From: Sulfuracidifex tepidarius
Lineage (GTDB): Archaea; Thermoproteota; Thermoprotei_A; Sulfolobales; Sulfolobaceae
Reading direction: 5' to 3'
NCBI RefSeq assembly: GCF_008326425.1
Contig: NZ_AP018929.1
Coordinates: 62,001 to 126,000, forward strand
Length of the DNA stretch: 64,000 bases
Shown here: positions 9,896 to 62,796 of the stretch, one piece after another
Layout: every line of letters begins with the position of its first letter
Position numbering within the stretch: the stretch's first letter is position 1
The notes under the pieces: model-generated
What the model was told of the DNA's origin: nothing
Databases searched by the model: none
What the model saw: the letters and a program-made list of their open reading frames with translations, nothing else
Made by a program: the position numbers and the translations under genes

Positions 9896-9990
9896 GATCT
9901 AAAACAATTTAAGTAATATTTTCCTGTTATATTTATTTTCTCCTTAAAAAGAAATGTAACCTTTTACTTTTTTAAAAAAGTAGTTTTCCA
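9896..9990. terminator. Convergent intergenic region with T-rich and A/T hairpin tracts
   Basis: Between two convergent genes, 9965-9986 reads CTTTTTTAAAAAAGTAG, a short A/T-rich inverted repeat next to T-runs. Archaeal termination uses T-tracts, so this may end both transcripts. Confidence 0.35.
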
Positions 9991-10956: not shown

Positions 10957-11049
10957 AAAGATCTCTATAGTCAATTATGATGAACCAACATTTTAAATTT
11001 TTAAGATGACTTCTCTTATCTCATTCGATTTTTTTAGAAAAACTGAGTT

Positions 11050-35445: not shown

Positions 35446-35572
35446 TGTACTTCATTTTCCTTTAATTAAAAATTTACTAGAAGAGAGATGTCATGTCTAG
35501 ATTAGAAAAACCTCATGCATTCTAGCTATGACTTTCATTGCTTTATTATTTAATATAATTATGTAGAAAATT

Positions 35573-36709: not shown

Positions 36710-37122
36710 TGACAGTGGAAAGATTTTTCTCTATTTAAATTTTACTAGAATAGGTATATCAAGGAATACTTCACAGATAAATTCAGTGAATATCTGGTAT
36801 CCTTATACGGAACCATGTGAGAAGTTACCAAAATGACGTGAAGAGAATTATCATCTGCAATCTTGAGCATTGCGATCCAATTAAAAGTAGTTGATAAAAG
36901 TCTTAGTTATGCGGGCTATACTTATTTATTCTCCTGGCTGGAGCAACTTTTTTAATAATTTGTTAATAGCAGTATAATTATAATAAAATTGAAAATATAA
37001 GTTTTTGAGAGCTTAGACTAAATATCTGTTATTGGGGAATATGGCGAATAATACTTTCTGTTTCATCAAAACATTTACTGAAAAGCAAAGTTATTTAGTA
37101 GTGCTTTTTCATTTTATATTAG
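36710..37122. other. AT-rich intergenic region between divergent glycosyltransferases
   Basis: It contains promoters for the flanking divergent genes but no clear motif that I can assign. No gene. Confidence 0.4.
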
Positions 37123-38136: not shown

Positions 38137-38192
38137 AGAAAGATGCTCTTTTTATATTAAAAAGAGTTTTTTCCTATGTGTGATATCTTTAA

Positions 38193-39263
38193 ATGCCTAA
38201 GAGGGCACTCTTCATCGAAGAGTTCACCAGACTGGGAGGTGGGCAAATAGCTTTCGTTAACGTGTACAATGCTTTAAAGGAGAGATTTAACACGATATCG
38301 CTTTACACGGATAGGGATCATCCTAGGCTCCCTCCGTTACATTTTGATAAGGTGATAGAGGGAGGTTACTCCTACTCGGAGGACGATCCTATCTATAAGG
38401 TCGGATTCAGGATCCTCAGGGAAAGAAGGAGGCTATCTAAAGTCAAGGAGGAATTCACTTTCAACAATCACCCTAATGTTTTCGTGTATAACGCCACACT
38501 TAACTTCGTACATGAGAACTTTCTTACACCTTTCATGGACGAACATGGCAACCTCAAGAAGAAATTTATGGTATATGCACTGAAGGCATCCAAGCTATAT
38601 AAGGTATATGACCGCGCTAATATCGTTGTTGCAGGGGAGTACTCTAAGAGCGTGGTGAACAAGTCTCTCTCGATTTTAGGCGTGAAACCAAAGAGGATAG
38701 CAGTGGTTAACCTACCCGTAGAACAACCACGTGATGTAGACCTGGAGGGTAAAGAAGGTTTAGTTCTGCTTTTTGGCAGGATAAACAGAGAGAAGAGATT
38801 GGAGGTTGGGCTTGAGGTTGCAAGAAGGTCTACCCAGAAGTTCATTATTGCGGGTTCCGTGAATAGAGGGGACGAGACATACCTAGAATTCCTAAAAGCT
38901 CACGCCCCCCCTAACGTTAATATCATACCTAATCCTACAATAGAAGAAAAGGATGCCCTTTTTAGGAAAGCCTCAGTTTTCTTACAAACTAAACTATTGG
39001 AACACTATGGCTTAGCAGTGGCCGAAGCTGTCTCTTACGGTCTTGTGCCCATAGTGCCTAAGGTAGGCGGGCCTTGGGTAGATATAGTCATGGAAGGTAA
39101 ATACGGGTTAGGTTACTCGAGATTAGAAGACATCCCAGCTTTGATAACTCAAGCTGTGCACTCACCTCTTTCGATTAGGAAAGAAATATTTGAATCCAGA
39201 GAAAGGTTTTCATTTAGTAAATTTAAGGAGAGTATTAATAAAGAGGTAGATGCTGTAATATAA
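38193..39263 (+). CDS. GT4-family glycosyltransferase
   Basis: This 356-residue GT-B protein begins RALFIEEFTRLGGGQIAFVNVYNALKERF. The donor-binding half has LVLLFGRINREKRLEVGLEVARRS, FIIAGSVNRGDETYL and TKLLEHYGLAVAEAVSYGLVPIVPKVGGPWVDI, where the first E of EHYGLAVAEA fits the retaining catalytic signature. No membrane segment. 56 bp separate it from the upstream GT2 gene on the same strand. Confidence 0.85.
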   Translation: MPKRALFIEEFTRLGGGQIAFVNVYNALKERFNTISLYTDRDHPRLPPLHFDKVIEGGYSYSEDDPIYKVGFRILRERRRLSKVKEEFTFNNHPNVFVYNATLNFVHENFLTPFMDEHGNLKKKFMVYALKASKLYKVYDRANIVVAGEYSKSVVNKSLSILGVKPKRIAVVNLPVEQPRDVDLEGKEGLVLLFGRINREKRLEVGLEVARRSTQKFIIAGSVNRGDETYLEFLKAHAPPNVNIIPNPTIEEKDALFRKASVFLQTKLLEHYGLAVAEAVSYGLVPIVPKVGGPWVDIVMEGKYGLGYSRLEDIPALITQAVHSPLSIRKEIFESRERFSFSKFKESINKEVDAVI

Positions 39264-39447
39264 ATAAAAAGGAGAGAGGAAATCTCTCTAGGAATAAACT
39301 ACGATTCTCCGAATGATAAACAAATAACATGTAATAGATCTGCAATTGTTTGCCTTTTCGCTAGTTTCTATTTATCTTTTCCACGATAATTTCAATCTCC
39401 TGTTTTTTAGTAGTGCATAAATAATAGAAATATTCCAAAGATTAGTG

Positions 39448-40533
39448 ATGTTGAGAGTCCTACTGGTAACACACGGAGAACTTAGCATAAAAAAGATGGG
39501 ATACATAGTAAGGGTAAATAACTTGATCCATTGTTTGAAACAGAGAGACGACGTTTACTTAAAAATTATAGAATATCCTAACCTTATGGTGGCAGAAGGG
39601 AAACAAGTTCCGCAAGAGGACACAATAAGACTGAATGCCCCAAGGAACTGGTTCGTTTTCGGCCCAAAACTAATTTTTGATTCCATACTTAAAATGCCAT
39701 TTATAAAAAAATTTGATATAATAGTAATAGAAGGCTCTGTATTTTTCCCTTATGCCTTCATTGGCAGGATATTAGGGAAGAAGGTGGTTTATGACTCCCA
39801 CGCGTTCATCTCGATGATCTCAAGGAAGACGGCGGGAATATCAAACTTCATTAAAAGGAGAATTATAGGAGAATCACTTGATTGGTTGGCAGTTAAAACT
39901 TCACACTATACCATAACAGTATCTAACTATGACCTAGAATATGCAAAAAATTATTTTAAAATAAAACCAAATAAGATTTTTACTATTCCCAACTCAGTGG
40001 AAATAAAGGCTTGCCACCCAGTCAATAACGTAGGAAAGTATTGGCTGTTCGTGGGAGACATGACATTTGAGCCGAACTACCTAGCTGTCTTGGAAATATT
40101 TAAGATCGCTGAGAGACTTAGAAACGAGAGGTTCGTGATAGTGGGCAGGGGAAATGAGAGGTTCTTACACCACCCTAGCAACGTCGATTTCACGGGAATG
40201 GTAGACAGTCTAGATGAACTTTACATGAACGCTAAAGGTTGCCTTATTCCTTTGTTCATAGGCGCTGGAATAAAAACTAAGGTCATAGAATGCATGAGTT
40301 ACGGTAAAAGGGTACTGACTACAAGGGTAGGCGTGGAGGGTTTAGAGAACTTGCATGAAGTAGAAGGTCATGGTTTGACCGTAAAGGACGATATTGATGG
40401 CTTAATCGAAGAGGTCTCGCATGATGATAAAACAAACATCTACTTGGAGTTGATCCAATATGTAAAAAAATACTATTCATTATGCGTAATGTGCAAAAAG
40501 CTAGACGAGTTTATAGACGTCGTAAAACAGTGA
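39448..40533 (+). CDS. GT4-family glycosyltransferase
   Basis: A GTG at 39445 precedes an ATG at 39448; the ATG is taken as start (MLRVLLVTHGELSIKKMGYIVRV). The acceptor half has FDIIVIEGSVFFPYAFIGRILGKKVVYDSHAF. The donor half has KYWLFVGDMTFEPNYLAVLEIFKIAERLRNERFVIVGRG and the late IPLFIGAGIKTKVIECMSYGKRVLTT signature with its E. GT-B fold, retaining type expected. It lies between another GT4 gene and the DUF2079 gene on one strand. Confidence 0.85.
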   Translation: MLRVLLVTHGELSIKKMGYIVRVNNLIHCLKQRDDVYLKIIEYPNLMVAEGKQVPQEDTIRLNAPRNWFVFGPKLIFDSILKMPFIKKFDIIVIEGSVFFPYAFIGRILGKKVVYDSHAFISMISRKTAGISNFIKRRIIGESLDWLAVKTSHYTITVSNYDLEYAKNYFKIKPNKIFTIPNSVEIKACHPVNNVGKYWLFVGDMTFEPNYLAVLEIFKIAERLRNERFVIVGRGNERFLHHPSNVDFTGMVDSLDELYMNAKGCLIPLFIGAGIKTKVIECMSYGKRVLTTRVGVEGLENLHEVEGHGLTVKDDIDGLIEEVSHDDKTNIYLELIQYVKKYYSLCVMCKKLDEFIDVVKQ

Positions 40534-40812
40534 TGAAGTAAAGCATTAGTGATTATAATTCTAGGTTATAAGGCAAAAAGTTGCCACCTTTTAATGCAAT
40601 TCAAAAAGAATCATGGCTGAAAGGGTATGGCTAGAGTCTGGCTTTAAGGACTTAATAAATACACTTAATAAATACAAAACTGGAGAGAGTGATAAAGAAG
40701 GAATTAAGTTGATTTAATTTGGTCTTTATCTAAGTATACTGATAACATTTAATTGACTCATAAATAGAAACTAGGAAAAAATTTAAAGGTAGTGCACTGT
40801 CTCTATTTTTGA
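40534..40812. other. Intergenic region before the DUF2079 gene
   Basis: AT-rich. A TATA-like AAATTTAAAGG near 40778-40788 is well placed for a start near 40813. Nothing else. Confidence 0.35.
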
Positions 40813-43257
40813 ATGTATTCGATAAGGATTAAGGTTAACTATCTTTTGTTGCTTATGGGCTCCACTACTTTCATGGTCACTCTTAGGTCTTGGTACATGG
40901 TTTACCAGACCTTCATGCTTAATAACGGTAACGTAATAGACACTTCAACTTTCATACAGTCGCTCTCAAGCGCGCTTTTCTCTCATCTCCCTTTTGTTAA
41001 CACAGTCCCTGGTGGATCATTCTTCTCGGTTCACGGATCGCCCATACTCTTCTTGTTGTTACCTTTCTATGCTGTCTTACCCAGTTTCGTGTCCCTTTAT
41101 ATCATACTTAATATAGTGAATTACTTCCCTTCTATACCCCTCTTCCTCATGGCTAAGAAGTCCTTAAGGTCGGAAAAGTTAGCCTTCCTTTACGGTTTTT
41201 CATACCTCTTTTACCCGTTCATTTACACTTATCCATTTGAGGTCCTGACTCTCTTCTCAGGACTTTTCATATTCGCCTTCTATTTTTACACAGAGAGGAA
41301 GTGGGTACAGTTCTTTATCCTGTTTGCTCTATCCCTTTCCACTATAGAGTTTTCTCCTATAGTGGGAGCATTCTTCACTTTTTACCTTATTGCAGAGAGG
41401 ATATCTAAGAAGGAACTAGTCTTGAAGAGGAGTTTAGCGTTAATGCTAAAGAGTTACTGGCTTGAGATATCAGTCTTCCTGGTAAGCGTAATTTTCTTTT
41501 TGATAGAGAAGGACATGATAAGTTACTTCTCCCTCTCATCCCATTCAGTCTTCTCTAACATTTATGGGACCGACCCGTTCTCACTTAAGAGCATAATTAA
41601 CGGCATAACCGACGACCCGCAGGGAAAACTAAACTACTTGGTGTTGCTTAACATGCCATTCCTCTTCCTGTCCTTCCTTGACCCAATTCTCATCCTTGAG
41701 TTACCGTGGCTTTTAGTGACCTTTATCTCGGTTTTCGGACCTTACTGGGACCCGTATGTGTATTACGCCAGTTATGTAACGCCTTTCGTTGTTTTAGGTT
41801 TCCTTAAGGGCGTAGACAGGATAAAGAACATGATGAACTCCAAGGCTATAAAGAAGATATTCCAGCTGTCCTTGGCGATAAACGTGTTGGTGTGGGTAGC
41901 GGTAGACGGGTTAACCATGTTCTACAGTTCCCCGGTTTACCCTGTCTCACCTCAAAATCAGGGCGTATTCCAGTTAGCCGATATGATACCTCAAAACTCA
42001 TCCGTTTACACTTACACTGGATGTTTACCCATTGCAAGTTCCCACTCTTGGAACTCGTGGTTTTACGGTTACACCAACAAGACTTACATCCTTTTTAATT
42101 CCTATAGCGGTCCTCCTTCAAACCTCTCAGGCTATGGGTTATACGGGGTTCAGGGCGACTTCATGTTGTACAGGCAGAACTTCACCGGTTCCCCCGTTAT
42201 CGATAGCTATTACTTGAACGCCAGCGGAGGGCAGACTAGCCCAGGTCAGCCTTATGTGGAGTCGTATTCCTTCTTCATACCTAAGGGTAATTACACAGCT
42301 CAGGTCTTCGTAAAGAGTAACGGAACGTACCCGAAGTTGGTTAACTACAATTTCGGTAACGTAGACGCACAGTTCCAAGCTAATGACTCTTACGCCGTTG
42401 TGCAAGAGTTCTCCGTTAGCGAGCCAATCACGCTGGGACAAGTTGTGATATTCGGGATACCCACATATGGTTACTATGGGTTTACGGCAGAGATAAGCAC
42501 GTCATTAGACCCCACCACGGTGATCCAGTCTTCTTCTTTTGCGCAATACGCGTACAAGCTAGACGGCTACGAAGTCTTCTCCTTCAGTAACTTGGAGCTT
42601 GAGCCAGGCAGGACTTACTACCTTTGGGTATACACGGGTGGAGATCCCGGAGGTCTGTTTCTACAAGGGAAACATGTAGGCAACGGTCTTTATTACGTGA
42701 AGCTGAGCTCTAACGCGGTTTCCCACGTGAGTGGATCAATGAAGTTCTCACTTGTGGCCTCAAACATAATGTGCCCCGTGATACACCCTAGCAATATCAC
42801 GATCACTATAAACAACGTCTCTCATTTCTTCACAGTACAGCAGAGCAACGTGTTCACGGTCCACTTCAGAGTGCAGAACTCGTCCTTCGTGGGAATAACC
42901 CTCCACGTTAACGAACCGTATTCGTATTTCCTTCTCACGCTGTCTGTGCATAACCACGACAAAGAGCTTCATTCCTTCATGTTACAAGAACCTTACGAGG
43001 TACTTCTGATCTTCTTGATTCCAAGCGTAGCATTGATGTTCGCTTCGCTAAAGCTTAGGAGACTGTCTATACCCTTCTCAAGGCTTTCCTGGTTATCTCT
43101 AGTTGTGCTTTTAGGGATTTTCTACATAACGTTCATGTTAGACTATTTTAACTTGGCTGTAGTCAGTCCCACGTTGTTAGCTTTGGAAGGGATAGCGGTT
43201 ACCGTGAACTTAGCGTTCTCGTTCTTCTCTTCCATAAGTAAGAAAGAGGTAACTTGA
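40813..43257 (+). CDS. DUF2079 large membrane protein (GT-C-like) with extracellular C-terminal domain
   Basis: This 814-residue protein has about ten membrane helices in residues 1-370, then a beta-rich outside domain with many N-x-S/T sites, then two or three final helices. The motif SFFSVHGSPILFLLLPFYAV and the preceding FIQSLSSALFSH are the DUF2079 signature (F...H..P, then small and aromatic residues). The family is thought to be related to GT-C glycosyltransferases that use lipid-linked sugars, though direct proof is lacking. It is followed 27 bp on by a GT4 gene and then by a pilin gene. Confidence 0.8.
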   Translation: MYSIRIKVNYLLLLMGSTTFMVTLRSWYMVYQTFMLNNGNVIDTSTFIQSLSSALFSHLPFVNTVPGGSFFSVHGSPILFLLLPFYAVLPSFVSLYIILNIVNYFPSIPLFLMAKKSLRSEKLAFLYGFSYLFYPFIYTYPFEVLTLFSGLFIFAFYFYTERKWVQFFILFALSLSTIEFSPIVGAFFTFYLIAERISKKELVLKRSLALMLKSYWLEISVFLVSVIFFLIEKDMISYFSLSSHSVFSNIYGTDPFSLKSIINGITDDPQGKLNYLVLLNMPFLFLSFLDPILILELPWLLVTFISVFGPYWDPYVYYASYVTPFVVLGFLKGVDRIKNMMNSKAIKKIFQLSLAINVLVWVAVDGLTMFYSSPVYPVSPQNQGVFQLADMIPQNSSVYTYTGCLPIASSHSWNSWFYGYTNKTYILFNSYSGPPSNLSGYGLYGVQGDFMLYRQNFTGSPVIDSYYLNASGGQTSPGQPYVESYSFFIPKGNYTAQVFVKSNGTYPKLVNYNFGNVDAQFQANDSYAVVQEFSVSEPITLGQVVIFGIPTYGYYGFTAEISTSLDPTTVIQSSSFAQYAYKLDGYEVFSFSNLELEPGRTYYLWVYTGGDPGGLFLQGKHVGNGLYYVKLSSNAVSHVSGSMKFSLVASNIMCPVIHPSNITITINNVSHFFTVQQSNVFTVHFRVQNSSFVGITLHVNEPYSYFLLTLSVHNHDKELHSFMLQEPYEVLLIFLIPSVALMFASLKLRRLSIPFSRLSWLSLVVLLGIFYITFMLDYFNLAVVSPTLLALEGIAVTVNLAFSFFSSISKKEVT

Positions 43258-43284
43258 TATTTTTAGCGTGAAAAGTGACAATTT

Positions 43285-44502
43285 ATGTTGTATGAAATTG
43301 CTGTTAGAGCAAGGAACATGATATGGCGTTACCCTTTAGGTGGAGCGGAGAACGTTACGCTTAACTGGTTGTCTAGATTCAGGCGTATTAAGGTACACAT
43401 GATTCCCGTGGTAGATGATATTTACGTGAGGATGTGCTTCAATGGTAAGGTAAGTAGAGAGGAGGTCGAAGAGATAGCGAAGGGTCAGCCTTTCTCTTAC
43501 GACCAAGACATCCTGAGCATGTACTTGGATTGCAAGTTACACCTAGATCCTGGCGGGTATAGAAAACTGGACTACAATTACGTATTTGACCCAGTCCTTT
43601 TTCCGGATACATTACCTTTGAGGAAGCAATTCAGTAAAGAAACCGGTAATCCCTTAGTCTCCTACGCGCTTAAGAAAGGATCAATTCTGATCTCATCGCT
43701 TATAGGTATAGGTGACATTAACCTGACTAACACTTACCTTTTGAAGAACGCATTCTACATGTCCCTCTACGGCGGTCTAAGCGATAACTTACTCCTGAAA
43801 TTCCTTTACTTAAGAACGATAGAAAGGCACCTTTTTCTAAACCTCAGGAAATACAAGGACAGAGTGCTGCTTCTGTCAACCTCCGAAGGCGTTAAGGACA
43901 AGCTACCTAAGGGTATGGAAGCCAAGGTAGTTTTCCCCCATTTCGCCCTTGATGAGGACGTGAGGAAATACAAGACTAGCGACAAGTGCGACTACGCTGT
44001 CTTTTTCGCCAGGGTTACCACACTCAAGGGAATATATGAGGCAATAAGAGCGTTCAAGCTCATTAAGGGAGAGAATATAAAATCGCTCCTAGTTATAGGT
44101 GAGAACTTTTCATCCGCACGTTCAGAGGAAGACGTTCAGTTCCTCGGAAGGATAAAGGACCGACAGGAAGTCTATAAAATCATTTCCCATGCTAGGGTAA
44201 GCATATACCCCTCCCATTCTGATGCCTTTGGGATTTCCGTGCTAGAGACCTTGGGTGTTGGAACTCCTGTGTCGATGTACTATAATCCTGCAAATTATGA
44301 ATATTTTTCGAAGTCAAAAATGGTGAAGATTGCAAGAGAATATGACGTCAAGGGGCTGGCTAGGAACGCATTGGAGCTGAATTACAATGACGATGAGTAC
44401 ACGGATTCATTGATAAGCTCTCATCTTAACTGGGAAACAGTAGCACAGAAAATAGAGGGCATAATCACGAAGTGGTTAGAAGGTAAGAGTCAAACCTGGT
44501 GA
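43285..44502 (+). CDS. GT4-family glycosyltransferase
   Basis: This 405-residue GT-B protein has a donor half with CDYAVFFARVTTLKGIYEAIRAFKLIKGENIKSLLVIG and RVSIYPSHSDAFGISVLETLGVGTPVSMYYNP, where DAFGISVLE holds the E-x7-E signature. The N-terminal acceptor half (WRYPLGGAENVTLNWLSRF) starts with a GG-A-E motif typical of GT4. It lies directly after the DUF2079 gene and before the pilin gene, so it may act on the same glycan or on the pilin. Confidence 0.85.
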   Translation: MLYEIAVRARNMIWRYPLGGAENVTLNWLSRFRRIKVHMIPVVDDIYVRMCFNGKVSREEVEEIAKGQPFSYDQDILSMYLDCKLHLDPGGYRKLDYNYVFDPVLFPDTLPLRKQFSKETGNPLVSYALKKGSILISSLIGIGDINLTNTYLLKNAFYMSLYGGLSDNLLLKFLYLRTIERHLFLNLRKYKDRVLLLSTSEGVKDKLPKGMEAKVVFPHFALDEDVRKYKTSDKCDYAVFFARVTTLKGIYEAIRAFKLIKGENIKSLLVIGENFSSARSEEDVQFLGRIKDRQEVYKIISHARVSIYPSHSDAFGISVLETLGVGTPVSMYYNPANYEYFSKSKMVKIAREYDVKGLARNALELNYNDDEYTDSLISSHLNWETVAQKIEGIITKWLEGKSQTW

Positions 44503-45082
44503 CATTAGTTTACACCTTAACCAAGGTAATGCTGCAAGAAAGAGTGGGAGAAAGGGCCTACGCCCGAAGCGTAGGTATAAGGACTGGCTTCTAATTGTTC
44601 AAATAATTCAAAGGTCTTAATGAATTAAGAGCGACTAGCCATTAAAGTCAGATTCTACTCTCCCAATAAGGGGAGCCGAGCAAACTCTTATATGCTCCAT
44701 GGACAGTGAAAAGGATTTTTCTCTTCCTTCATGAATAATATCTAGAACAACCATAGTGCCTATACTGAGCTACTATATTCGAATACTAAATTATCTCAAT
44801 TTATTATAAAGTTAAGGTTGTAATACTCTATAAGCTCATCACGATGAAATTTTTCTGTAGTTAATCCAAATAAATCCTAGATGGTGGAAATCGTGTAAAC
44901 CAGGAGAAACCATCATACAGCAGGGAGTAATTCTTTGCATGATTATCTAAATTACATACTTCTATTGAGTTTAAGCCTTTCTCTTTTCCTTAACTCTTGT
45001 TACGAGTGTAATTTCAGTTATTTTTAATTCTACGAAAGATATATAGACAAAGCTTTATATAGACAATAAATGAAAGATATGT
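44503..45082. other. 580-bp intergenic region with a GC hairpin, pilin promoter at the end
   Basis: CCTACGC-CCGAA-GCGTAGG at 44557-44575 is a perfect 7-bp stem. Near 45050 a TATA-like CTTTATATA stands about 33 bp before the pilin start. No coding frame is supported. Confidence 0.45.
44557..44575. terminator. GC-rich hairpin after the GT4 gene
   Basis: The stem CCTACGC/GCGTAGG with loop CCGAA is 55 bp downstream of the gene end. It could mark transcript processing or be an IS right-end relic, since the loop resembles that of the TnpB right ends. Confidence 0.35.
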
Positions 45083-45484
45083 GTGGTTCAGAGAAAGAAT
45101 AGAAGGGGTATATCAGGTTCCCTAACTTCTTTTATCCTTATTGCTGCATCAGTTGTGATCTCACTTGTGGTCATAGGTTTCGCCTTTGGGACTCTTACAT
45201 ACACCTCCACGCCAACAGTGAAACAGGACGGGGAAATGTTGATATTGAGCAAAGGTGAAGAGTACTGTCTAACTGGAGTCGTTACCTCCTCTGGGAACGT
45301 GATAATAGATTCTGTAAGTGTTAATGGAAATATGGAGTCGATAAGCGTGAAGATAAATCAGGGGCAGAACAACCTTGATATTCCTTTACCTTCAAGTTTC
45401 AACCCACAACAAGGGCAGCACTATAACGTGATCCTGGGTTTGAGTGATGGGACTAATCTAAATGCTTACGCTTACTATAGTTAG
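45083..45484 (+). CDS. Type IV (Aap-like) pilin
   Basis: This 133-residue protein begins QRKNRRGISGSLTSFILIAASVVISLVVIGFAFGTL. That is a basic class III signal, cleavage expected after the Gly (RRG|ISG) by the archaeal prepilin peptidase PibD, then the hydrophobic assembly helix. The C-terminal beta domain ends NVILGLSDGTNLNAYAYYS, which is shared with the pilin at 49565 (VTLGLSDGQSVAISATYQ) and the ruined copy at 52875. It would assemble into adhesive pili on the cell surface. A TATA-like box stands about 33 bp before the GTG start. No pilus ATPase or platform gene is in the window. Confidence 0.85.
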   Translation: MVQRKNRRGISGSLTSFILIAASVVISLVVIGFAFGTLTYTSTPTVKQDGEMLILSKGEEYCLTGVVTSSGNVIIDSVSVNGNMESISVKINQGQNNLDIPLPSSFNPQQGQHYNVILGLSDGTNLNAYAYYS

Positions 45485-45674
45485 GATCTTACCACTTTAT
45501 GGTTTACTTTTTCCGTTATCCACCCTAGTGGTCCGTTAGGATCTTTCACCTTATGATAATCTCAATAAATTAGAAAAATGCGTCTAGCACTTTCCCACTG
45601 TTTTCCAGTCTTAGGATTCCTTCTAAATACTACTATGAAATAACTTGATAATCTCTATAAGTTTTAAGGAAATA

Positions 45675-47990
45675 TTAAATGTGTGCAGTCACTTCTTTTA
45701 TCCATTTAATGATATGTTTCCTCAACACGAAAAGCATCAGGGCTAGCGTTGTGACGCCGTTGAGTGAAAGCTCTAGATCAAGGTGTGACATGCTAGTTGG
45801 TTCAGAGAAGCTTCTTCCAAGAAGCGACCCCGAGTTGGGGTAAGACGTAATCGGAACGGCATTCATGGTACCGTTAAGCTTCAGGTTAACCGGTATCAAG
45901 ATAACACCAGCTAAAAGGGAAATAGAGTCCCCCGTGAAACGTAGCTGAAGCTCTCCGCTGTCCCTGATCTCGCCGGCGCAGTAGAAGTTCAAGTTCATGG
46001 AGGAGTTGGTATTCACAGAAACAGAGGTGGTTCCGTTGAAGACGCTGAACACCCCTCCTCCGGGGAGAGAGACGTATTCGAATATGACGCGGTAAACCCC
46101 TTGGCTGACGTTAAGGTTAAGGAAAGAGTTGTTTCCTACTTCATAAAAGAAGAGGTAAGGGTATGCGTTCTCCACGTCCAATATCTCATAAGTGGTGTAT
46201 ATAGAATCCGTAAAGTTGGTAGGATAAGGTAGGTGTTTGACTTCGAGGCTAACAGGCTTTATTCCGTACTCTTTGTAGTAAAGGAATGCAATTCTCTCCG
46301 CTTGGTTACCTCCCAGGATTCCTCCTAAATACTTGGGACTGATGGAATACATCAAGTATTCAGGCAAAACATTGACGGATTTGTTAAGCCCCAAGAGTTG
46401 GTTGAAGCTGGTGTAAACGTAAACTGGTGAGTTTATCTCGTAAGTGAAGTCCATGTTTTTGTACACCGTTATGTTTCCTTCACTCCACACCGGGATCAAG
46501 TTAGTGACATTGGGTTTCATTCCTTCCGTAACCACGTACTGGAAACCTAGGGCGTTTAGTTCCTCCGCCGAAACCTGCGTGAAGGGGAGGGAAGCTTGTT
46601 TGTGATTCATGAAACCGTACGGATCCAGATCGTGGGGTAGATCGTCAAGATACGAAGAGTAGCCAACTCCGTAACCCAGGAAAGCTACGTCCCCTTGACT
46701 TCCCTTCAGGAAGTCAGCTAGGTTCATCATGATGGGAGGTGGGTCATGTGTCACGTATTCCCCGAAGTAATTTCCCGACAGGACTGCTGGGGACGAGAAT
46801 ATCCCCTGAGATACCAGAACCATCACTAGTACCGGTAAAAGTATCTTCCTCTTAGACATCTCCCCTAATACCATGGCTACCAACAAGAATAGGGGAGCCA
46901 TGACCATCTCAGAGATGTAAGTCGGTAAGATAATCCACAAGTATCCGTATGCGAAGGTGTTCTGTAGCACGTGTAGTAAGGGATAAATCAAATCAAGAGT
47001 TATCGTGAACGGACCTAGAGGTACAGTGGACGTGATGAAAAGCACAGTGAAGAGATAAAGGAAGAGAAGGTAAGTGGAGATGGACTTTCTCTTTTTTAAG
47101 AAGAGGTATCCCAGGATTCCTGTCTCAATGAAGATAAAGGAAATAGGGTAGAAAAAGAACAAGTTCCCCGTGTAGAACGTCACGTCAGGATTGAATACGC
47201 CTATACCCCTCATCGACTCTAGGATAGAATAAGTCTGATAGTTTATCCAAAGCTGACCGCTTTCTATATCAAGACTGAGCTGGGAATAATAACTATGGCC
47301 AAGGAGAAGGTAAAGGAAAACTCTGCTCTCCAGGAGGAGGTACGGGATCACCGATTTCAGGAAAGTATAGAAACCTCTTTTATACAAGGTCATGGTCAGT
47401 ACAATGAAGAGAGTGAAAACGAAACCTCTAGGGTCAGTTGATGAAACTGCCGAAATGATGGCTAGGAGAAGGTAGTTTCCCTTCTCGAGGGCGTAGTCCG
47501 CTCCCGTTATTGTCGCTGGTAGGAAAGCGTAGAAGGAGGCGTAGTTATACCAGTGTGAGAAATAGAAAGCCGTAGGTGAGATAGCGTAAAGGAAAGCCAA
47601 GGAGGCTGAAATCAGGATTACCCTAATTCCGTAAAGCCCCGTTTTCCTAAGTAAGTATCTCGATGCGAAATACATGGAAGGCACAGCCAAGGCAAACGGG
47701 AAAATGAACTGTCCGATGTAATCGAACATCATGAAAGAAAGGATGCCTACTCTCATCAACCCATCCATGAAAAGTATGAACACATCCATGTCTAACGGGA
47801 AACACGATAAGGCATATGATGCTCTCTCTGGAGTAGCGTAGAAAGGAGGGTAATAATCTCTATCAAATATGAAACCAGGCTTTCCTACTATCGAGTGAAG
47901 CGCAATGATAGGTGTTATCACAGTAAGTACAGTGACGATGGCTAAGTCGAGTTTCAATGAGAGCGTAAAGCGTAGCGTCTGCTTAAGCAT
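45675..47990 (-). CDS. Large GT-C-like membrane protein with extracellular domain
   Basis: This 771-residue protein has about twelve membrane helices in its first 400 residues, then an outside beta-rich domain with many sequons, and a last anchor helix (TTLALMLFVLRKHIIKWIKE). Near residues 40-70, FIFDRDYYPPFYATPERASYAL holds acidic residues on the first outside loop, as in GT-C enzymes. It overlaps the previous gene by 8 bp, and an AGGAGG ribosome-binding site lies within that gene's end. It belongs to the pilin transcript on this strand. An oligosaccharyl- or glycosyl-transfer role is inferred from layout only. Confidence 0.65.
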   Translation of the reverse strand: MLKQTLRFTLSLKLDLAIVTVLTVITPIIALHSIVGKPGFIFDRDYYPPFYATPERASYALSCFPLDMDVFILFMDGLMRVGILSFMMFDYIGQFIFPFALAVPSMYFASRYLLRKTGLYGIRVILISASLAFLYAISPTAFYFSHWYNYASFYAFLPATITGADYALEKGNYLLLAIISAVSSTDPRGFVFTLFIVLTMTLYKRGFYTFLKSVIPYLLLESRVFLYLLLGHSYYSQLSLDIESGQLWINYQTYSILESMRGIGVFNPDVTFYTGNLFFFYPISFIFIETGILGYLFLKKRKSISTYLLFLYLFTVLFITSTVPLGPFTITLDLIYPLLHVLQNTFAYGYLWIILPTYISEMVMAPLFLLVAMVLGEMSKRKILLPVLVMVLVSQGIFSSPAVLSGNYFGEYVTHDPPPIMMNLADFLKGSQGDVAFLGYGVGYSSYLDDLPHDLDPYGFMNHKQASLPFTQVSAEELNALGFQYVVTEGMKPNVTNLIPVWSEGNITVYKNMDFTYEINSPVYVYTSFNQLLGLNKSVNVLPEYLMYSISPKYLGGILGGNQAERIAFLYYKEYGIKPVSLEVKHLPYPTNFTDSIYTTYEILDVENAYPYLFFYEVGNNSFLNLNVSQGVYRVIFEYVSLPGGGVFSVFNGTTSVSVNTNSSMNLNFYCAGEIRDSGELQLRFTGDSISLLAGVILIPVNLKLNGTMNAVPITSYPNSGSLLGRSFSEPTSMSHLDLELSLNGVTTLALMLFVLRKHIIKWIKEVTAHI

Positions 47991-48681
47991 GTTTTATCCT
48001 CCTAATTACAATAATTAGAGGTATTGCAATTAAATTGAAAGGTATTATGCAATCGCGTATTAAGAACAAGAAGTTCTGGTTTTCTTTGATATTTTCTAGG
48101 GCAGAAAAGGGTTTAAGTCCTGGAGGTATTACTGGTTCTTCATCAAGGAAACTTGTTGGAATAAGGTTGTAAGTAGCGTTTCTAATTAGATCTCTTTCAT
48201 CATTAGTTTGGGTTATTATAATTTTGGATGGAACACCGGAAGAATTTACAAAATATGTGCACTGAATAATTGCTCCACAAAAGCGTTCGGTTCCATAGTA
48301 TGTAAACACTCCGTTGTCTTCACCATTTAGACTTAAATTTAAAACCCTTTGGAGATTCCCCTTACCTAGCAGGTAAGTAGGTATATAATAGAATGACTTT
48401 GGGTATGACAAATTATCTAGTTCTGACGACGTAGGGAATTCTATGGAGTTATTCATGCATATTATGTTAACGGAGAAAACGAAAGTACCGTTGTTATTGA
48501 TCTTTGTAACGTTTTCTATTAGTAATTTACAAATTATTTTGCTCTCTCCAGCTTCCGGAGAGATCAACGATCTTATCTTGTATTCTACGAATGATCCCTG
48601 GCTTAAATGCGGTATTAACGACGGATTTGTTAAGACGGAAATTACCATCAAAGTGACTGTAAGGATGATGGTAATTCGCAT
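47983..48681 (-). CDS. Exported protein with C-terminal membrane anchor (232 aa)
   Basis: A signal-type N-terminus (ITIILTVTLMVISVLT), a glycosylatable outside domain and a last helix (NLIAIPLIIVIRRIKHA) give a bitopic surface protein. It has the same length and layout as the next gene upstream (48765-49463), both with an early GSF-V-YK motif (LSQGSFVEYK versus LEKGSFTVYK), so they are ancient paralogs. It is in one strand-run with a pilin and the GT-C-like protein. Family unknown. Confidence 0.65.
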   Translation of the reverse strand: MRITIILTVTLMVISVLTNPSLIPHLSQGSFVEYKIRSLISPEAGESKIICKLLIENVTKINNNGTFVFSVNIICMNNSIEFPTSSELDNLSYPKSFYYIPTYLLGKGNLQRVLNLSLNGEDNGVFTYYGTERFCGAIIQCTYFVNSSGVPSKIIITQTNDERDLIRNATYNLIPTSFLDEEPVIPPGLKPFSALENIKENQNFLFLIRDCIIPFNLIAIPLIIVIRRIKHA

Positions 48682-48764
48682 AAAATATATAGAAAAACTT
48701 GTCTAAAAATCTTTACCTACTATCTTACTAGAAAATAAAAATTATGTTTCTCTTATACTCATTA

Positions 48765-49463
48765 TTAATTTCCTTTTCTAAATATAAAAATAATAATTAT
48801 AGCAATAATGGCTGTGCCTATGATGTATTCATCTATGCGCTCTTGAGTTGTAACTATTGTATTGACGAAGTTTACGTCTGTAGGTGTCTTAAGTTGATAT
48901 GAATAAGATGGTATAGAGGCCGACGAATTACCTATATTTGTGGATACTAACGTGACACAAGTCGACGAGACTAAAGCTCCTGAACTGGTTTGATTGAAGA
49001 CGATCTTGTATGCAACTCCATTAGGCATGAAATAATAAATACCTAATACATTAACATCTTGGATGGAGTTAGAAGATGCATAAATATAATATCCGTCTTT
49101 TATATCTTCGAATGTAAGCCCGCTTATATTTTGCCCTAGAAGTGTAGGAGATATATAACGCATACCTATGCAGTAAGAAGAATTCCCAATTGTAAAGATT
49201 CTTAATCCAATATGTTGAATTGAAGAACAATCTATATCAGTTGAATTTAAAAGGATAGACCCGTTTTGAAAAACTTGTTCAACCACGTTTATGTAAATAT
49301 TTGTCAAGTTATATTTATAAGGGTAGTAAATATGATCAGTTGATTTATACACTGTAAAACTACCTTTTTCAAGGTAGGCATTTGGTGTTATGGCTTGCAG
49401 ATTTAGGTGAACTAACATTGCTAGTAAAAAAAATAAAAAGATACCATATAATTTTCTGTTCAT
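48765..49463 (-). CDS. Exported protein with C-terminal membrane anchor (232 aa), paralog of the neighbour
   Basis: The N-terminal helix (LYGIFLFFLLAMLVHLNLQAI) exports it. The outside domain has many Tyr/Asn and sequons (YYPYKYNLTNIYINVVEQVFQNGSILLNST). A last helix (YIIGTAIIAIIIIFIFRKGN) anchors it. It resembles the 47983 protein in length and order. The gap to the pilin gene upstream is about 100 bp. The role is probably in the envelope with the pilin. Confidence 0.65.
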   Translation of the reverse strand: MNRKLYGIFLFFLLAMLVHLNLQAITPNAYLEKGSFTVYKSTDHIYYPYKYNLTNIYINVVEQVFQNGSILLNSTDIDCSSIQHIGLRIFTIGNSSYCIGMRYISPTLLGQNISGLTFEDIKDGYYIYASSNSIQDVNVLGIYYFMPNGVAYKIVFNQTSSGALVSSTCVTLVSTNIGNSSASIPSYSYQLKTPTDVNFVNTIVTTQERIDEYIIGTAIIAIIIIFIFRKGN

Positions 49464-49564
49464 TATTATAATAACTGATTTGCCAGTATTTAAGTCTTGA
49501 CTTCAAAACAAAGAAAGATAAAAAAAAGAAGACCTATAAAATATTTTTTTAGATAAAAATATTT

Positions 49565-49999
49565 TTATTGATAGGTTGCTGAGATTGCCACGCTCTGCCC
49601 ATCAGAAAGGCCTAAGGTTACGGTGTAGGTTCCTCCTGGGTTGAGAGAGGCTGAGGTAGGTAGGGTAATGGTCAGTGATGTAGTACCTGGGCTTATTGGT
49701 ATGTTGGCAGACTCTAAAGCTCCATTTACTCCCACAGAGTCTATGACTGTATTCCCTGTGGAAGTCAATACTACACTGAGAGTTGTACCACCGTTGGTTA
49801 TGTATGCAGCTCCGCTCTGTTGTACTGTAGGTGCACCGCCGAAGCTCAGGAAGCCGAAGGCGAAAGCAACGACTATTAGAGCTATCAGAACTGAAGCTAT
49901 GACTAATATCAGGGCTGTTACAGCGCCTGACAGACCTTTCCTGTTTTTCCTACTCTTTATGAGGAGACTTTTCATGTTCTCTGAATCTTTTCTATACAT
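49565..49999 (-). CDS. Type IV (Aap-like) pilin
   Basis: This 144-residue reading has SRKNRKGLSGAVTALILVIASVLIALIVVAFAFGFLSF, a class III signal with cleavage expected after KG|LSG. A Met nearer the signal (49975, MKSLLIKSRKNRKG) is an alternative start. The beta domain (GAAYITNGGTTLSVVLTSTGNTVIDSVGVNGALES) matches the 45083 pilin in order (STGNTVIDSVGVNG versus SSGNVIIDSVSVNG). It is divergent from the DUF2079 gene at 50170 and upstream of two exported proteins and a GT-C-like protein on its own strand. Confidence 0.85.
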   Translation of the reverse strand: MYRKDSENMKSLLIKSRKNRKGLSGAVTALILVIASVLIALIVVAFAFGFLSFGGAPTVQQSGAAYITNGGTTLSVVLTSTGNTVIDSVGVNGALESANIPISPGTTSLTITLPTSASLNPGGTYTVTLGLSDGQSVAISATYQ

Positions 50000-50169
50000 T
50001 TCTTCTATTTAAGCTTTTCTTATTAGTTAAATCCGATACCTATCCATTTAAAGTAATTTATTATTTTATCATCATTAAATGTATTTAATATTTGTATTGG
50101 GACTGTCTTGATAGAAACACTTTTTATATCAGCAATAGTTAAGACGAAATTCTCAGAGGGTTATAGAGA

Positions 50170-51732
50170 ATGACGAAAGTGAAAATAGAAAAGACAGGAA
50201 AAACAGTGCTCTCTATAGTAAAATATGTTCTTCCATTAACGTTTTACATCACATGGGTTCTCTATTTCCTATACCTTCTGCCTAGTTCCGTCATTTTCCC
50301 TTCTGCTCTAGTTACCTTGATTTCCACGTTGTACTTATTCCGCAATCCACTTTACACTTGGCTCAAGAAGTGGCCTACCCTGACTTCTGTAGTATTCCTT
50401 TTCACTTTCTTCGTAACGTTGTGGATGTACCTGAAATATCTATCCTTCGAAGTGTACGCCTTTGACCTTGGAACGTTCCAGCAGTCCCTTTATACTACCG
50501 TGTTCTCTCACAGGTGGTTCTTGGACAACCCAGACATGGCAACTTTTTACGGCACTCACCCTGAAGGTTACGTTTCCATCTGGAACATCCTTTTCTCTCC
50601 CTTCATGTTGTTATTACTCCCTGAATATGCCTTGTTCCCTTCTCCAGTAACTCTCTTCTTCATTCAAGCTTTAGCCATTTCTTCTTCATCTATCTTACTC
50701 AGGGAAGTATCTACAGGATGGCTAGGGGAGTCCAAGGCAAGGGTTCTCTCTTACCTCTGGTTCGCCTACCCTTTCACCTACTTTTCAGGCTTTTACGACT
50801 TCCACTTAGAGTCTTTCATACCATTCTTCACCTTCCTTACCTTACTCTCTATACAGAGAGGGGGAAGGTTGTTCAGAGCGAGTTCCCTCGTTGTATACCT
50901 GACAATAATTAAGGCTACTCCTTTCCTCATGATAGCCTTGTTACCTTGGTTGTACAGGAAGAAGCTCATAGGCAAAAATGTTGTAGCATATATGTTTACG
51001 TCTATCTTCTTCGCCTTTTTCGACGTGATAATGGAAAGAATACCTTACGACGGTAAGCTGACACATTTTTACGTGTTAGGAGTTAAAGTTCCCTTGCTGA
51101 GTGAGAGTTACGTTTTCCATTACATACCAATATTGTTGTATCACCTTGCCCCGCAACTGGGAGTTACCATCCTTTCCTGGTTCGTGGGGGTTCTCTTCCT
51201 CCCCTTGTTTTCCCTGTCAATCCTCCCTGCCTTGGTATGGATGGGTGGAGGGCTCATCACGTGAGACCTGCTTTACGTGAACGGATTTTATCAGTATGGT
51301 AACATAATTTTACCATTCATCTTCTTGGGAATCATGGACTTCGCCAGTAGACACGACTTCGATCTGAGGTATCTGATACCTACTTCTCTAATCACCGGGC
51401 TCGTGGTACTTACTTTATCCTTCCACTATGGATTAGGTTTCATAACTACTGCATACTCCCTCCAAGTACCTCACTTGAACCAGGAAGATGAGGGGCTCTC
51501 TAACTTCCTCTCAAAGATACCCAGCAACGCATCTCTCTTAGTAAGCTCGCGGGTCTTTCCACACGTGGCTGACGATCCTAACGCTTACATCGTTACGCCT
51601 CCTTGGGTAGTACCTGAATACGTGGTATTGAACACGACACCTTCCTCTCATACCTTTGAGCAATTAAGGGAGGAAGGTTACGTCGTAGTGTATAACGCTT
51701 CGAATTGCCTCGTTATGTATCATGAGAAGTGA
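50170..51732 (+). pseudogene. DUF2079 membrane protein, interrupted by one in-frame TGA
   Basis: Reading starts at ATG 50170 and gives nine or ten helices with the DUF2079 motif (AFDLGTFQQSLYTTVFSHRWF, FYGTHPEGYVSIWNILFSPFMLLLLPEYALFPSPV). At 51262-51264 a TGA interrupts. The same frame continues DLLYVNGFYQYGNIILPFIFLGIMDF and ends at 51732. The intact paralog at 53559 has the matching part (YVPYYNDLYQYNFIVIPFLFIAF), so the TGA is a lesion rather than a normal end. It is otherwise full length, about 520 residues, and shorter at the C-terminus than the paralog. Confidence 0.8.
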
Positions 51733-52414
51733 AAGGATTGGAGCACTCCTCTACTCGACTCCCTGTTTCGTCACGCTATAGATGGGACGAGGTCAAAAAC
51801 TCCTTGAGAGTAGTTTCAACAGGGGAAATCAACTTCTTTTTATGATTTCTTTGATGAATTTTCTAATGAAGGAGAGGGATCTATTGATAGTCGGAGGTGA
51901 CAGTTAGAGGAGGTGACTTACAAAGACGAGGCCCTAGCTTTTTATGATAATAGGTCCTGACACAGAAGTTATATCTATACGTCTCAGCAGGGCGTAACGT
52001 AGATGAGATCCAGAGTTCATAACGTAGCTTGAAAACGCGGGTCTGTGTATTACGAATTATGAAAAGCAACAATATCTACAGAGTTATTGAGGCGTTGTAG
52101 AAGAATAGTTAAGCGCTTCCACAATTCTCCTTATGTAGGGAAAAAATGCAGAGATTGAGTGCTTAATCTGTGTTTAGATAAAGGTTGAGATACACACTTT
52201 TTTAACTTTACGTGGGTTAAGGGGGCGAAAGTCCCCGCTATCAGAGCATCAACATTTGATCTGTCAGCAATGGCTAGACAGTTCGTGTGTGTGATGAGTT
52301 GAGCCAATGTTAAGAGCTAATAAAACTATGATGTGAATAGTCGTCTCTACTCTTTGCTGTCTAATGGGAAAAGTATAAACTCACTCTCTCATATTTTTAC
52401 ATAAAGTGAACTAC
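51733..52414. other. Decayed intergenic DNA with a TnpB left-end-like block
   Basis: 52205-52250 carries GGGTTAAGGGGGCGAAAG, which resembles the inner left-end block at 5930-5946 (GGGTTTAAGGGGGCGTAAG). Other short frames here have many stops. No gene is supported. Confidence 0.35.
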
Positions 52415-52816
52415 ATGGATGACGTAAAGGAGATCATAAATGGTGAGTGACCCTGAACTAATGGATGTCCTGACACAGAAGGTAGGAGAGAGACTAAAGG
52501 AAGACAAACTCGTGACGGACGTTGAAGGTTTGAAGAAAGACGTCTCCGAACTCAAGGACATGGTCGCACGCAATGTCAGGGAAACCAATGACCTTAAGGT
52601 TCGGGTAGAGACACACAACAAGATACCGAGGAGCACTCAAAAAGCATAGAGGAGAACACTAAGGCAATAAAGGAGATGCAAGCTCAAGTATGGGAAGCAA
52701 TCAAGAGGATCGACGAGAACTCTAAGAGGATAATAGAGCTAAATGAAAGAATGGATGAGCGTTCCCACGTCATTGAGGAGCACACGAAGGTTATCGCAGA
52801 ACAATCTCGTAAATAA
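52415..52816 (+). pseudogene. Frameshifted coiled-coil protein
   Basis: Pieces in three frames give MDDVKEII, PELMDVLTQKVGERLKED then GLKKDVSELKDMVARNV and, after a frame change near 52625, TEEHSKSIEENTKAIKEMQA followed by VWEAIKRIDENSKRIIELNE and IEEHTKVIAEQSRK. Heptad patterns run through the length. Similar coiled coils precede nuclease domains in DUF3782-type proteins, but no such domain follows. Probably the ruined front half of one. Confidence 0.55.
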
Positions 52817-52874
52817 ACATTTCATATGAATTAATGTTATGATAAACCTAGTCATGAGCCAGTTATAATACTTC

Positions 52875-53268
52875 TTAACTATAGTAAGTGTAAGCGTTTA
52901 AGCTAACTCCGTCGCTAAAGCCTAGGATTACGTTATAGTGTTGCCCTTGTTGAGGAATGAAACCAGGAGCAGACAGACGTTTAAGTTGTTCTCTACCTGG
53001 ATCTCCAGGCTCAGTGTTTCCATTTTTCCATTCATGCTCACAGAGTCAACGTTCACTTTCCTGAAGATGAAACTACTCCAATGAGGAAATATGTTCCGCC
53101 TTTTTCACTATTCTCATTGATCCATCCTGTTTAACTGTAGGTGTGGAGGTGTAAGTAATCGTGGAGAAAGTGAAACCTATTACCACAAATGAGATCACGA
53201 CAGAAGCTGTGATAAGTACAAAAGGTTAAAGGGGCTGATATAGCTTTCTTGGTCTTTCCTTGTTTCAT
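52875..53268 (-). pseudogene. Ruined type IV pilin, paralog of the 45083 pilin
   Basis: The minus strand reads MKQGKTKKAISAPLT, frame change, FVLITASVVISFVVIGFTFSTITYTSTPTVKQDGSM, further changes, and ends NVILGFSDGVSLNAYTYYS. The intact pilin at 45083 has ILIAASVVISLVVIGFAFGTLTYTSTPTVKQDGEM and NVILGLSDGTNLNAYAYYS, so the two are recent duplicates. It lies 290 bp downstream of the DUF2079 gene at 53559 on the same strand. Confidence 0.8.
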
Positions 53269-53558
53269 ACTAATGCCTCTTCATTTATCCATAGAAGTCT
53301 TCTTGGATTATTATCTTTAATAAAATAATTTTTGGCATTACCTGGTGTACAGCTTTAGTTAATTTAGAACTGGAAAAGTAATCGGTTGGAGGTAGTATTT
53401 TCAATGGATATCAAAAACTACTATTAGTAATAATATTATATTTTACTTCATCACCCTTCTCTATTCCGATTTTAAACTACTCATTTTTTATAGAATTATG
53501 ATAACACTAAAATAATATTATAATTTACAATAAAGAATCAAACTACTTATAAATAAAA
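53269..53558. other. AT-rich intergenic region
   Basis: No gene. TATA-like AATAAAATAATTTTT stretches may serve the pilin remnant. Confidence 0.35.
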
Positions 53559-55316
53559 TTAGATAAATTCCTCATTTATTGTCACATAAGTAAACGAATA
53601 AGAGCTAATATTCAAGCACGAACTATTCACCTCAATCAGTGCTTGGGTCGCATTGATGAGCTCGGTTCCTTCTACGTAACCAGTGAAGGGTCTAGAGAAA
53701 CTGATATTGTATACGCCCGGTTCTACTGTAAAGCTTTGGTTATTGTTCGGATAGACGAAGAAGGAAGCATTAAAAGGTAGGAAGGCTAGTACACTCTGCT
53801 CAGTCCTAGATAGAGCTACATAAGGTGGAATTTCAGCAATTACATGATACCCGTTTTTAATATAATGATTTATCTGATTCGAATGAAAATAAATGCAGTC
53901 AAATACGTAATTAGGAGTGACATTGGGAGGTGCTTCACAGAAAGTGTACATACTGTTCGCTAAATGTGGAAAGATGGAGTTAGAGGCTACGATAACCCCA
54001 GACATATGTGAAACCACTTCATTTATACTGGCGATCTTTTGGTCTATGTGAGGTATTTCAAGTGACGCTATGCCCCTATCATACCCGTATACAGATGTTA
54101 GTGCTGCAATCGAACTAATAACGAGAAATGATATCACCAAAGATAACTTAAACGAGTTAATATTAATGTTTATATTAGAAACTGAAAAAGCAATGAAAAG
54201 GAACGGTATAACGATGAAGTTATACTGGTATAAATCGTTGTAATAAGGAACGTAAAGCGAGAACCATGAATATGCTAGCCATACCCATGCTGGTAGCATT
54301 TGTAAAGGTTTACTCAGAGGTAACAGAAGTAATGGAGCTAGGAGAAACAAAAGATACATAGACTCTAAAGGAATGTTATACAAAACATGGAATAAGTTAT
54401 AACGTAAGCCAAAATAATGGAAAGAGGTCGTAGTAAGAGCATTCTTAACCAAGTACAGCTTACCGTCGTAAGGTACTTTCTCCATGAGTGTAGAGAAACC
54501 AAGGTAGAGCAAAGCACCCGCCCCGGAAATCAGAGCTACAATTTTCTCTCTGGTTTCTCTATATAAGAAGGGGATAGAGAAGAGGAAGAGGACTGGTGTG
54601 ACCTTGATGATGGTGAAGTACGTGACGAGCAAGGGCCACATATACCTCCACCTCATGGTCAGGTAGAAGTAAAGCGTGATGAAAGTGAAGAAAGGTATGA
54701 AAGACTCGAGGTGAAAGTCGTAGAACGACGAGAGGTAGAGGAAAGGGTATCCCAAGTAAACGTATGGCACGACCCTAGAGGCGCGTGGGTTCAGGACCTC
54801 CACCAGTTTCTTCAGTGGGACTGACGCTGTAGTGACCACTAATGCCTCGACTGTGAAGAGGGTCAGAGGCGATGGGAAGAGAGCGTAAAGCGGTAGGAGG
54901 AGCAACATGAAAGGGGAGAACAGAATGTTCCACAGAGACACATATCCCTGAGGATGAGACCCGTAAAAAGTAACCATATCTGGGTTGTCCAGGAACCATC
55001 TGTGCGAGAATGCTGTTGTGTATAACGACTGTTCAAATATGCCCAAGTCGAAAGCGTAAGTCTCGTATGAGAGATACTTCAAGTACATCCAAAGGATCAT
55101 GAAGGACGAAATCGTCAAGGATACAGCGAGGAGCTTCCATTCATACTTCACTACACGGATTATCTTTCTCACGAGCAGAAACGCTGCAGATGACACGGTG
55201 ACGATCGAAGCAGGGGCTAGGGCAAAGTACGAATCAGGTATGACACGCAGGAAGGCCAGTGCCCAAACCACGTAGAAAGTGGAAGGTATGACATATTTAG
55301 CTTTTTCAATCTTCAT
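53559..55316 (-). CDS. DUF2079 membrane protein
   Basis: This 585-residue intact paralog of the 50170 gene shares with it YETYAFDLGIFEQSLYTTAFSHRWF and FYGSHPQGYVSLWNILFSPFMLLLLPLYALFPSPLTLF. Ten or more helices are followed by an outside domain (VVASNSIFPHLANSMYTFCEAPPNVTPNYVFDC) and a beta-rich end with sequons (FNASFFVYPNNNQSFTVEPGVYNISFSRPF). The family is thought to be GT-C-like, working with lipid-linked sugar outside the membrane. Its downstream neighbour is a pilin remnant, the same association as at the other pilins in this window. Confidence 0.8.
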   Translation of the reverse strand: MKIEKAKYVIPSTFYVVWALAFLRVIPDSYFALAPASIVTVSSAAFLLVRKIIRVVKYEWKLLAVSLTISSFMILWMYLKYLSYETYAFDLGIFEQSLYTTAFSHRWFLDNPDMVTFYGSHPQGYVSLWNILFSPFMLLLLPLYALFPSPLTLFTVEALVVTTASVPLKKLVEVLNPRASRVVPYVYLGYPFLYLSSFYDFHLESFIPFFTFITLYFYLTMRWRYMWPLLVTYFTIIKVTPVLFLFSIPFLYRETREKIVALISGAGALLYLGFSTLMEKVPYDGKLYLVKNALTTTSFHYFGLRYNLFHVLYNIPLESMYLLFLLAPLLLLPLSKPLQMLPAWVWLAYSWFSLYVPYYNDLYQYNFIVIPFLFIAFSVSNINININSFKLSLVISFLVISSIAALTSVYGYDRGIASLEIPHIDQKIASINEVVSHMSGVIVASNSIFPHLANSMYTFCEAPPNVTPNYVFDCIYFHSNQINHYIKNGYHVIAEIPPYVALSRTEQSVLAFLPFNASFFVYPNNNQSFTVEPGVYNISFSRPFTGYVEGTELINATQALIEVNSSCLNISSYSFTYVTINEEFI

Positions 55317-62795: not shown

Positions 62796-62796
62796 C

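Follow-up and report, generated by a model that had tools for sequence, protein, structure and literature searches.

We analysed a window of 64,000 nucleotides from Sulfuracidifex tepidarius (GCF_008326425.1, NZ_AP018929.1, positions 62,001-126,000 of the forward strand; all positions given here are window-based), in which pilin genes and genes of large membrane proteins lie together. Between 40.8 and 55.3 kb there are three pilin genes (two intact and one ruined), three DUF2079 genes and one gene for a polytopic protein of 771 amino acids (aa), here called gtc771. Table 1 lists the features. Two further genes, p232b and p232a, are located between pilin2 and gtc771; they were absent from the initial annotation of this DNA and turn out to be important. 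The genes of p232a and gtc771 overlap by 8 bases. The initial annotation had listed pairs of pilins and membrane proteins at 40813-55316, and this list was found to be correct when the Pfam matches, class III signals and reading frames were re-examined.

Pilin2 has the class III signal, the hydrophobic helix and the immunoglobulin (Ig)-like domain (the last from sequence matches to PDB) expected of a Sulfolobales adhesive type IV pilin. It matches the PDB chains 8tib (E 6.3e-19), 8fjs (3.5e-17), 6nav (7.8e-14) and 6w8x (2.5e-12), and also 8q30. Pilin1 and pilin2 share 47% identity, and the ruined pilin is 48% identical to pilin1 (tblastn). All four DUF2079 frames, which start at 40813, 50170, 51277 and 53559, exceed the curated PF09852 cut-off of 28.2 bits. 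DUF2079 B and C are 46-50% identical, with 40% over 525 columns, and A and C about 26%. The claim that the locus holds duplicates among both the pilins and the DUF2079 proteins, with one of each broken, is borne out by the identities, the ruined pilin and the split DUF2079 B. The single TGA is the sole stop in DUF2079 B, which is otherwise open and has no counterpart to the final part of C; it is a young lesion.

Table 1. Genes and features in the window, with the genes of the pilin locus first and the upstream glycan-building neighbourhood last.
Feature	Position	Strand	Remarks
DUF2079 A	40813-43257	+	814 aa; Pfam E 1.7e-31; inside glycosyltransferase gene run
GT4 glycosyltransferase	43285-44502	+	Pfam PF00534 1.1e-13; 27 bp gap after DUF2079 A
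Pilin1 (second pilin type)	45083-45484	+	Class III signal; Ser/Thr 20%, sequons 0
gtc771, polytopic, 771 aa	45675-47990	-	GT-C-like by profile; candidate pilin O-glycosyl/oligosaccharyltransferase
p232a, 232 aa	47983-48681	-	Membrane helix at either end; outer domain rich in strands, 7 N-sequons; a clade
p232b, 232 aa, pilin-side	48765-49463	-	p232a-like architecture; b clade
Pilin2, adhesive Aap/PilA-type	49565-49999	-	Class III signal; PDB matches; Ser/Thr 31%, outer-domain N-x-S/T sequons 0
DUF2079 B	50170-51732	+	Split by in-frame TGA 51262-51264; Pfam pieces E 2.6e-15, 5.4e-10
Ruined pilin	~52878-53270	-	Pieces in different frames; 4 stops within match; nearest to pilin1
DUF2079 C	53559-55316	-	585 aa; Pfam E 2.9e-28
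Flippase-like gene	34057-35445	-	Pfam match
GT4	35573-36709	-	Pfam match
GT2	37123-38136	+	Pfam match
GT4	38193-39263	+	Pfam match
GT4	39445-40533	+	Pfam match

We compared the locus with 214 genomes of the order, 31 of them from the family Sulfolobaceae. A single copy of gtc771 exists in 17 of the 31 family genomes (broken in G179), and the other 183 genomes gave no good match, apart from one marginal fragment (G059). A scan of a contig database returned one relative (L095, Sulfolobales archaeon HS-7), and a scan of viral contigs returned none. The nearest adhesive pilin lies within 4.6 kb of gtc771 in all 17 genomes and within 1.7 kb in 16 of them, the distances being taken from the gene coordinates of the homology searches and transferred by hand. 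With 2-7 pilin matches in each genome, the chance of such proximity is 1-3% per genome, and its product over six genera is about 5e-11. The genes flanking the gtc771 locus vary between genera, and therefore the linkage to pilins is not merely an inherited stretch of chromosome.

The two p232 genes belong to the same arrangement. The order pilin, p232, p232, gtc771 on one strand, which in the window starts from pilin2, is also found in G188, G189, G190, G191, G193 and G194; in other genera the parts are shuffled, mostly still a few kb apart at most. Members of the p232 family occur in 19 of the 214 genomes, namely all 17 with gtc771 (two copies each, one of them in pieces in G193) and two without it, G201 and G181 (one copy each). 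In the p232 tree, which covers 32 of the 37 matched pieces, there are two clades with support 99/97. In most genomes the pilin-side copy falls in the b clade, as do the lone copies of G201 and G181, and the a clade was never found without gtc771. G188, G193 and G194 have a second a-clade type on the pilin side, and the Ig type of their pilin differs from that of G189, G190 and G191. The pilin Ig type and the type of its partner p232 thus co-vary in six out of six genomes, a small number (L076, L079 and L081 versus L080, L077 and L078). No PDB match and at most single weak Pfam matches were obtained for p232, and the AlphaFold model of p232b, built from 4 sequences, has a pLDDT (predicted local distance difference test) of 46.6.

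The initial annotation had called the 771-aa protein GT-C-like, and at the profile level this label holds. In hhalign comparisons gtc771 scored 49.6 with PTPS_related, 41.6 with PMT_2, 38.6 with STT3 and 37.3 with DUF2079, over 370-570 columns starting near the N-terminus; by their Pfam clans, these four families are GT-C. Their pairwise scores among themselves are 40-109. All four exceed the 14 controls, which consist of six unrelated polytopic groups (15.0-26.5) and eight reversed profiles (18.3-30.0). The profiles were built from 24 of the 25 STT3 loci supplied (L146 not among the 25), all 6 PTPS_related loci supplied (L155 and L156 not among them), 30 of 30 PMT_2 loci and, for DUF2079, 11 of the 13 loci supplied out of 19 fetched. 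One DUF2079 cluster among the intended negatives scored 35.5; it is GT-C and was kept out of the six controls. No YfhO profile was used, as there was no match above the cut-off in 101 genomes. The invariant residues of gtc771 are R44-D45..P48, D69, D186-P-R188-G and E361. D45 is present in 16 of 16 sequences, in the predicted first outer loop between the hydrophobic stretches 13-31 and 71-89, and in the printed hhalign alignments this Asp of 'RDSYP' is placed at, or next to, the Asp in the first loop of STT3 and PMT_2. The nine N-sequons of gtc771 all map to 494-706, which fits an outer C-terminal domain. On these sequence comparisons, we assign gtc771 to GT-C with moderate confidence.

The distribution of gtc771 can be set against published pilus glycosylation. 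In G191, the pilin that precedes gtc771 has 2 differences in 129 aligned positions from 6w8x, which we take to be the published S. solfataricus pilus, and the module pilin of G190 matches 8tib (E 1.3e-59). The pilin of G199, a genome in which neither gtc771 nor p232 was found, is identical to 8q30, presumably the S. acidocaldarius Aap structure, across that chain's 141 residues. According to the portions of the papers available to us, S. solfataricus pili have seven O-linked Ser/Thr, with Ser/Thr at about 37% (PMC7347861), in S. islandicus pili five residues bear O-glycans and no Asn is glycosylated (PMC11178852), and the S. acidocaldarius Aap pilus carries three N-glycans and no O-glycan (PMC11178815). 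Thus, all three family species with published adhesive-pilus glycosylation fit, two with gtc771 and one without. No Sulfolobales pilin O-glycosyltransferase is named in the titles and abstract openings of the literature found, which did not cover subscription papers and preprints, and the same portions of these three papers leave the responsible enzyme unnamed. The O-glycosyl transferase of the S. acidocaldarius thread is termed 'currently elusive' in the available part of PMC11607397.

The pilin compositions follow the same trend. Ser/Thr make up 28-38% of the outer domain in the best pilin of each gtc771 genome. N-sequons are depleted in these pilins, with 5 seen versus 22.5 in shuffles (n=17), whereas the genomes without gtc771 show 31 versus 29.9 (n=12). 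With one genome per genus the counts are 2 versus 7.9 expected (P 0.006) and 14 versus 13.4, respectively. The mean sequon number of a genus also differs between the two groups (Mann-Whitney P 0.003, or 0.006 without the genus of G201). In this set 30 loci were read, G182 yielded no pilin and G202 had no pilin match; the genus values were transferred by hand from the composition table, and G201 was first entered with its pilin1-type pilin.

From the linkage, the co-occurrence, the GT-C resemblance, the Ser/Thr-rich and sequon-poor pilins and the match to the published glycosylation of three species, we consider it probable that, in the conserved Sulfolobaceae module of adhesive pilin, p232b, p232a and gtc771, the last serves as a pilin-dedicated GT-C O-glycosyl- or oligosaccharyltransferase. 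Catalysis, the donor, the acceptor and the roles of both p232 proteins are what we infer beyond these observations. Known GT-C enzymes draw on lipid-linked donors and work at the outer face of the membrane. In the proposed mechanism gtc771 would accept a sugar or oligosaccharide from a lipid carrier and attach it to Ser/Thr residues in the Ig-like outer domain of the pilin, and the transfer would occur before assembly, when the pilin is still embedded in the membrane. p232a would be the obligate partner of gtc771, and p232b may be an adaptor or chaperone on the pilin side. We suggest more tentatively that the module could be a three-part cassette, consisting of the dedicated gtc771, p232a as an obligate partner with an outer domain, and an adaptor of the p232b type that matches the pilin and is exchanged together with the Ig domain of the pilin; swap or loss of the cassette might then switch the pilus between O- and N-glycan coats and change which viruses bind.

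Several results weigh against the proposed module function. The related genomes are not independent in the gtc771 counts. The GT-C link is moderate, with hhalign probabilities of 12-61%; no Pfam model matches any of the 16 gtc771 homologues; the gtc771 profile has no convincing PDB match (the best, E 0.075, is to a short stretch of an unrelated protein); and the AlphaFold model, from 2 sequences, has a pLDDT of 31.8. With the other pilin of G201, the P value of the genus-level sequon comparison rises from 0.003 to 0.02. G201 has no gtc771 and yet retains a pilin that is rich in Ser/Thr and free of sequons; the pilins of G197 and G200, two further genomes without gtc771, are likewise sequon-poor and Ser/Thr-rich. 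Finally, a stand-alone PMT_2-type GT-C protein of 373-429 aa is present in 21 of the 31 family genomes, including 16 of the 17 with gtc771.

This last protein leads to the best surviving alternative, in which the stand-alone PMT_2 is the O-glycosyltransferase of Sulfolobaceae, and gtc771 has a different part, extending or flipping the glycan or working on some other substrate; its linkage to pilins would then reflect the importance of the glycan for pili. S. acidocaldarius has a stand-alone PMT_2, and its thread putatively bears a single O-mannose (PMC11607397, available part), as this alternative would expect, yet its Aap pili lack an O-glycan. Moreover, G180 has gtc771 without a stand-alone PMT_2, and the copy in the window's genome (G000:C1:1837177-1837557) lies far from pilins. 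We regard this explanation as unlikely. On a separate matter, the stand-alone PMT_2 proteins, found in G000 and 20 other family genomes, are a candidate for the O-mannosylation of the S. acidocaldarius thread.

It is less likely still that gtc771 and p232 are non-enzymatic factors of pilus assembly or anchoring, the GT-C resemblance reflecting a common membrane layout. The tight linkage to pilins and two p232 partners with outer domains would suit such factors, and so would the moderate GT-C probability. However, the forward profile of gtc771 scores above every control, aligns from near the N-terminus and conserves the first-loop Asp, and S. acidocaldarius assembles homologous pili without gtc771.

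The initial annotation had instead proposed that the membrane proteins, DUF2079 or GT-C-like, act on the pilins, with enrichment of the DUF2079-pilin pairing in other genomes as a check. DUF2079 is found in 13 of the 214 genomes and in 4 of the 31 family genomes, being absent from the other 27. The window's genome has three such genes, all at the present locus. Outside the window, a gene with a class III signal lies within 5 kb of DUF2079 at 1 of 13 loci, the one in an archaellum-like operon of G007. At two loci that are orthologous, in G199 and G200, such a gene is 5.4-5.5 kb away, and the other ten have none in the stretch searched, which for G107 and G211 was just 3-4 kb. The scan was loosened once so that archaellin-like genes are caught, known pilins served as controls, and 20 random stretches (400 kb) gave one doubtful match. 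There is no enrichment over chance, and a general rule of DUF2079-pilin pairing was rejected; the pairing is local. That the DUF2079 proteins are the pilin-dedicated transferases is therefore very improbable, even though the three genes of the window are each near a pilin and that of G007 is in an archaellum-like operon. The idea of a membrane glycosyltransferase dedicated to pilins is supported for the 771-aa protein but not for DUF2079, and the earlier interpretation holds once it is moved to the 771-aa protein and its partners.

DUF2079 A is within a run of glycosyltransferase genes (37123-44502), as are some DUF2079 genes of other genomes, and a general role in glycan building therefore fits it better. 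A glycan-building neighbourhood of a flippase-like gene and glycosyltransferases also lies upstream of 40813, at 34057-40533. We regard the DUF2079 genes as a lineage-specific addition for glycan assembly, outside the conserved module. The run around DUF2079 A may build the glycan, a guess from the neighbourhood alone. No literature mentioning 'DUF2079' was found in a search that did not cover subscription papers and preprints. In G007 (L093) a DUF2079-type gene at 9188-11161 directly follows genes resembling FlaH, FlaI and FlaJ (named by eye); archaellin-like genes are at 2393-3052 and 12545-13180, one of them 1.4 kb away. This gene could possibly be an archaellin-dedicated GT-C from another family.

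The suggestion that the modules expand and decay agrees with the ruined pilin, the stop-split DUF2079 and the broken gtc771 of G179. Local decay and rearrangement at the locus are real. In the sister genome G201 the locus is shorter and rearranged, and the genes common with the window have changed orientation; a stretch of about 3 kb contains the two pilins and p232b, and gtc771 and p232a are absent. Since six genera share gtc771, its loss in G201 is likelier than a gain in the lineage of the window. G179 (L091, 8891-10286), with gtc771 in pieces and p232 and the pilin kept, represents a natural loss mutant.

Two other regions of the window were also noted. Five consecutive secreted or anchored proteins are encoded at 59147-63998 (+), two of them of 520 aa with class III-like N-termini; the four that were scanned had no Pfam match over the cut-off, and the run is perhaps another filament or secretion locus. 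Open reading frames resembling IS605-type TnpB by eye, which are mobile elements, lie at 6355-7230 and 29290-30336 (+).

For the O-glycosylation of archaeal surface filaments, gtc771 provides a named single-gene candidate enzyme. In the available portions of the papers, glycan accounts for over a third of the S. islandicus pilus by mass (PMC11178852), and the glycan coat is credited with acid survival and may decide which viruses bind (PMC7347861). Knock-outs of pilus genes already exist in Saccharolobus, and so testing gtc771 with a single mutant is feasible. A rule testable in further species also follows from the reading, namely that pilins beside gtc771 should be O-glycosylated and avoid N-sequons.

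When compared with known systems, gtc771 resembles the GT-C enzymes (STT3/AglB, PMT_2, PTPS_related and DUF2079) in its N-terminal membrane helices, conserved first-loop Asp and C-terminal outer domain, with hhalign scores of 37-50. It differs from them in having no Pfam match, in being confined to Sulfolobaceae within the order searched and in always lying near a pilin. TfpO/PilO and TfpW of Pseudomonas are membrane transferases encoded beside the pilin they modify, as proposed for gtc771, and they belong to other sequence families; we know of no counterpart of the two p232 partners in those systems. The Aap system of S. acidocaldarius has a homologous pilin, but it is N-glycosylated without an O-glycan (PMC11178815, available part) and its genome is without gtc771 and p232. 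The closest likeness is to the PilA1/PilA2 locus of S. islandicus, which shares with the window the pilin family, two close pilins and O-glycosylated pili (PMC7217056; PMC11178852). The available portions of these two papers do not discuss the p232 and gtc771 genes. The locus tags presumed to adjoin SiRe_2654 and M164_2742 occur in the literature searched only in PMC7217056, twice, where the available text gives M164_2741 as one end of a cloned stretch. The window differs from that locus in its extra DUF2079 copies and its glycosyltransferase run. Its order of pilin, p232b, p232a and gtc771 recurs in the relatives G189, G190 and G191.

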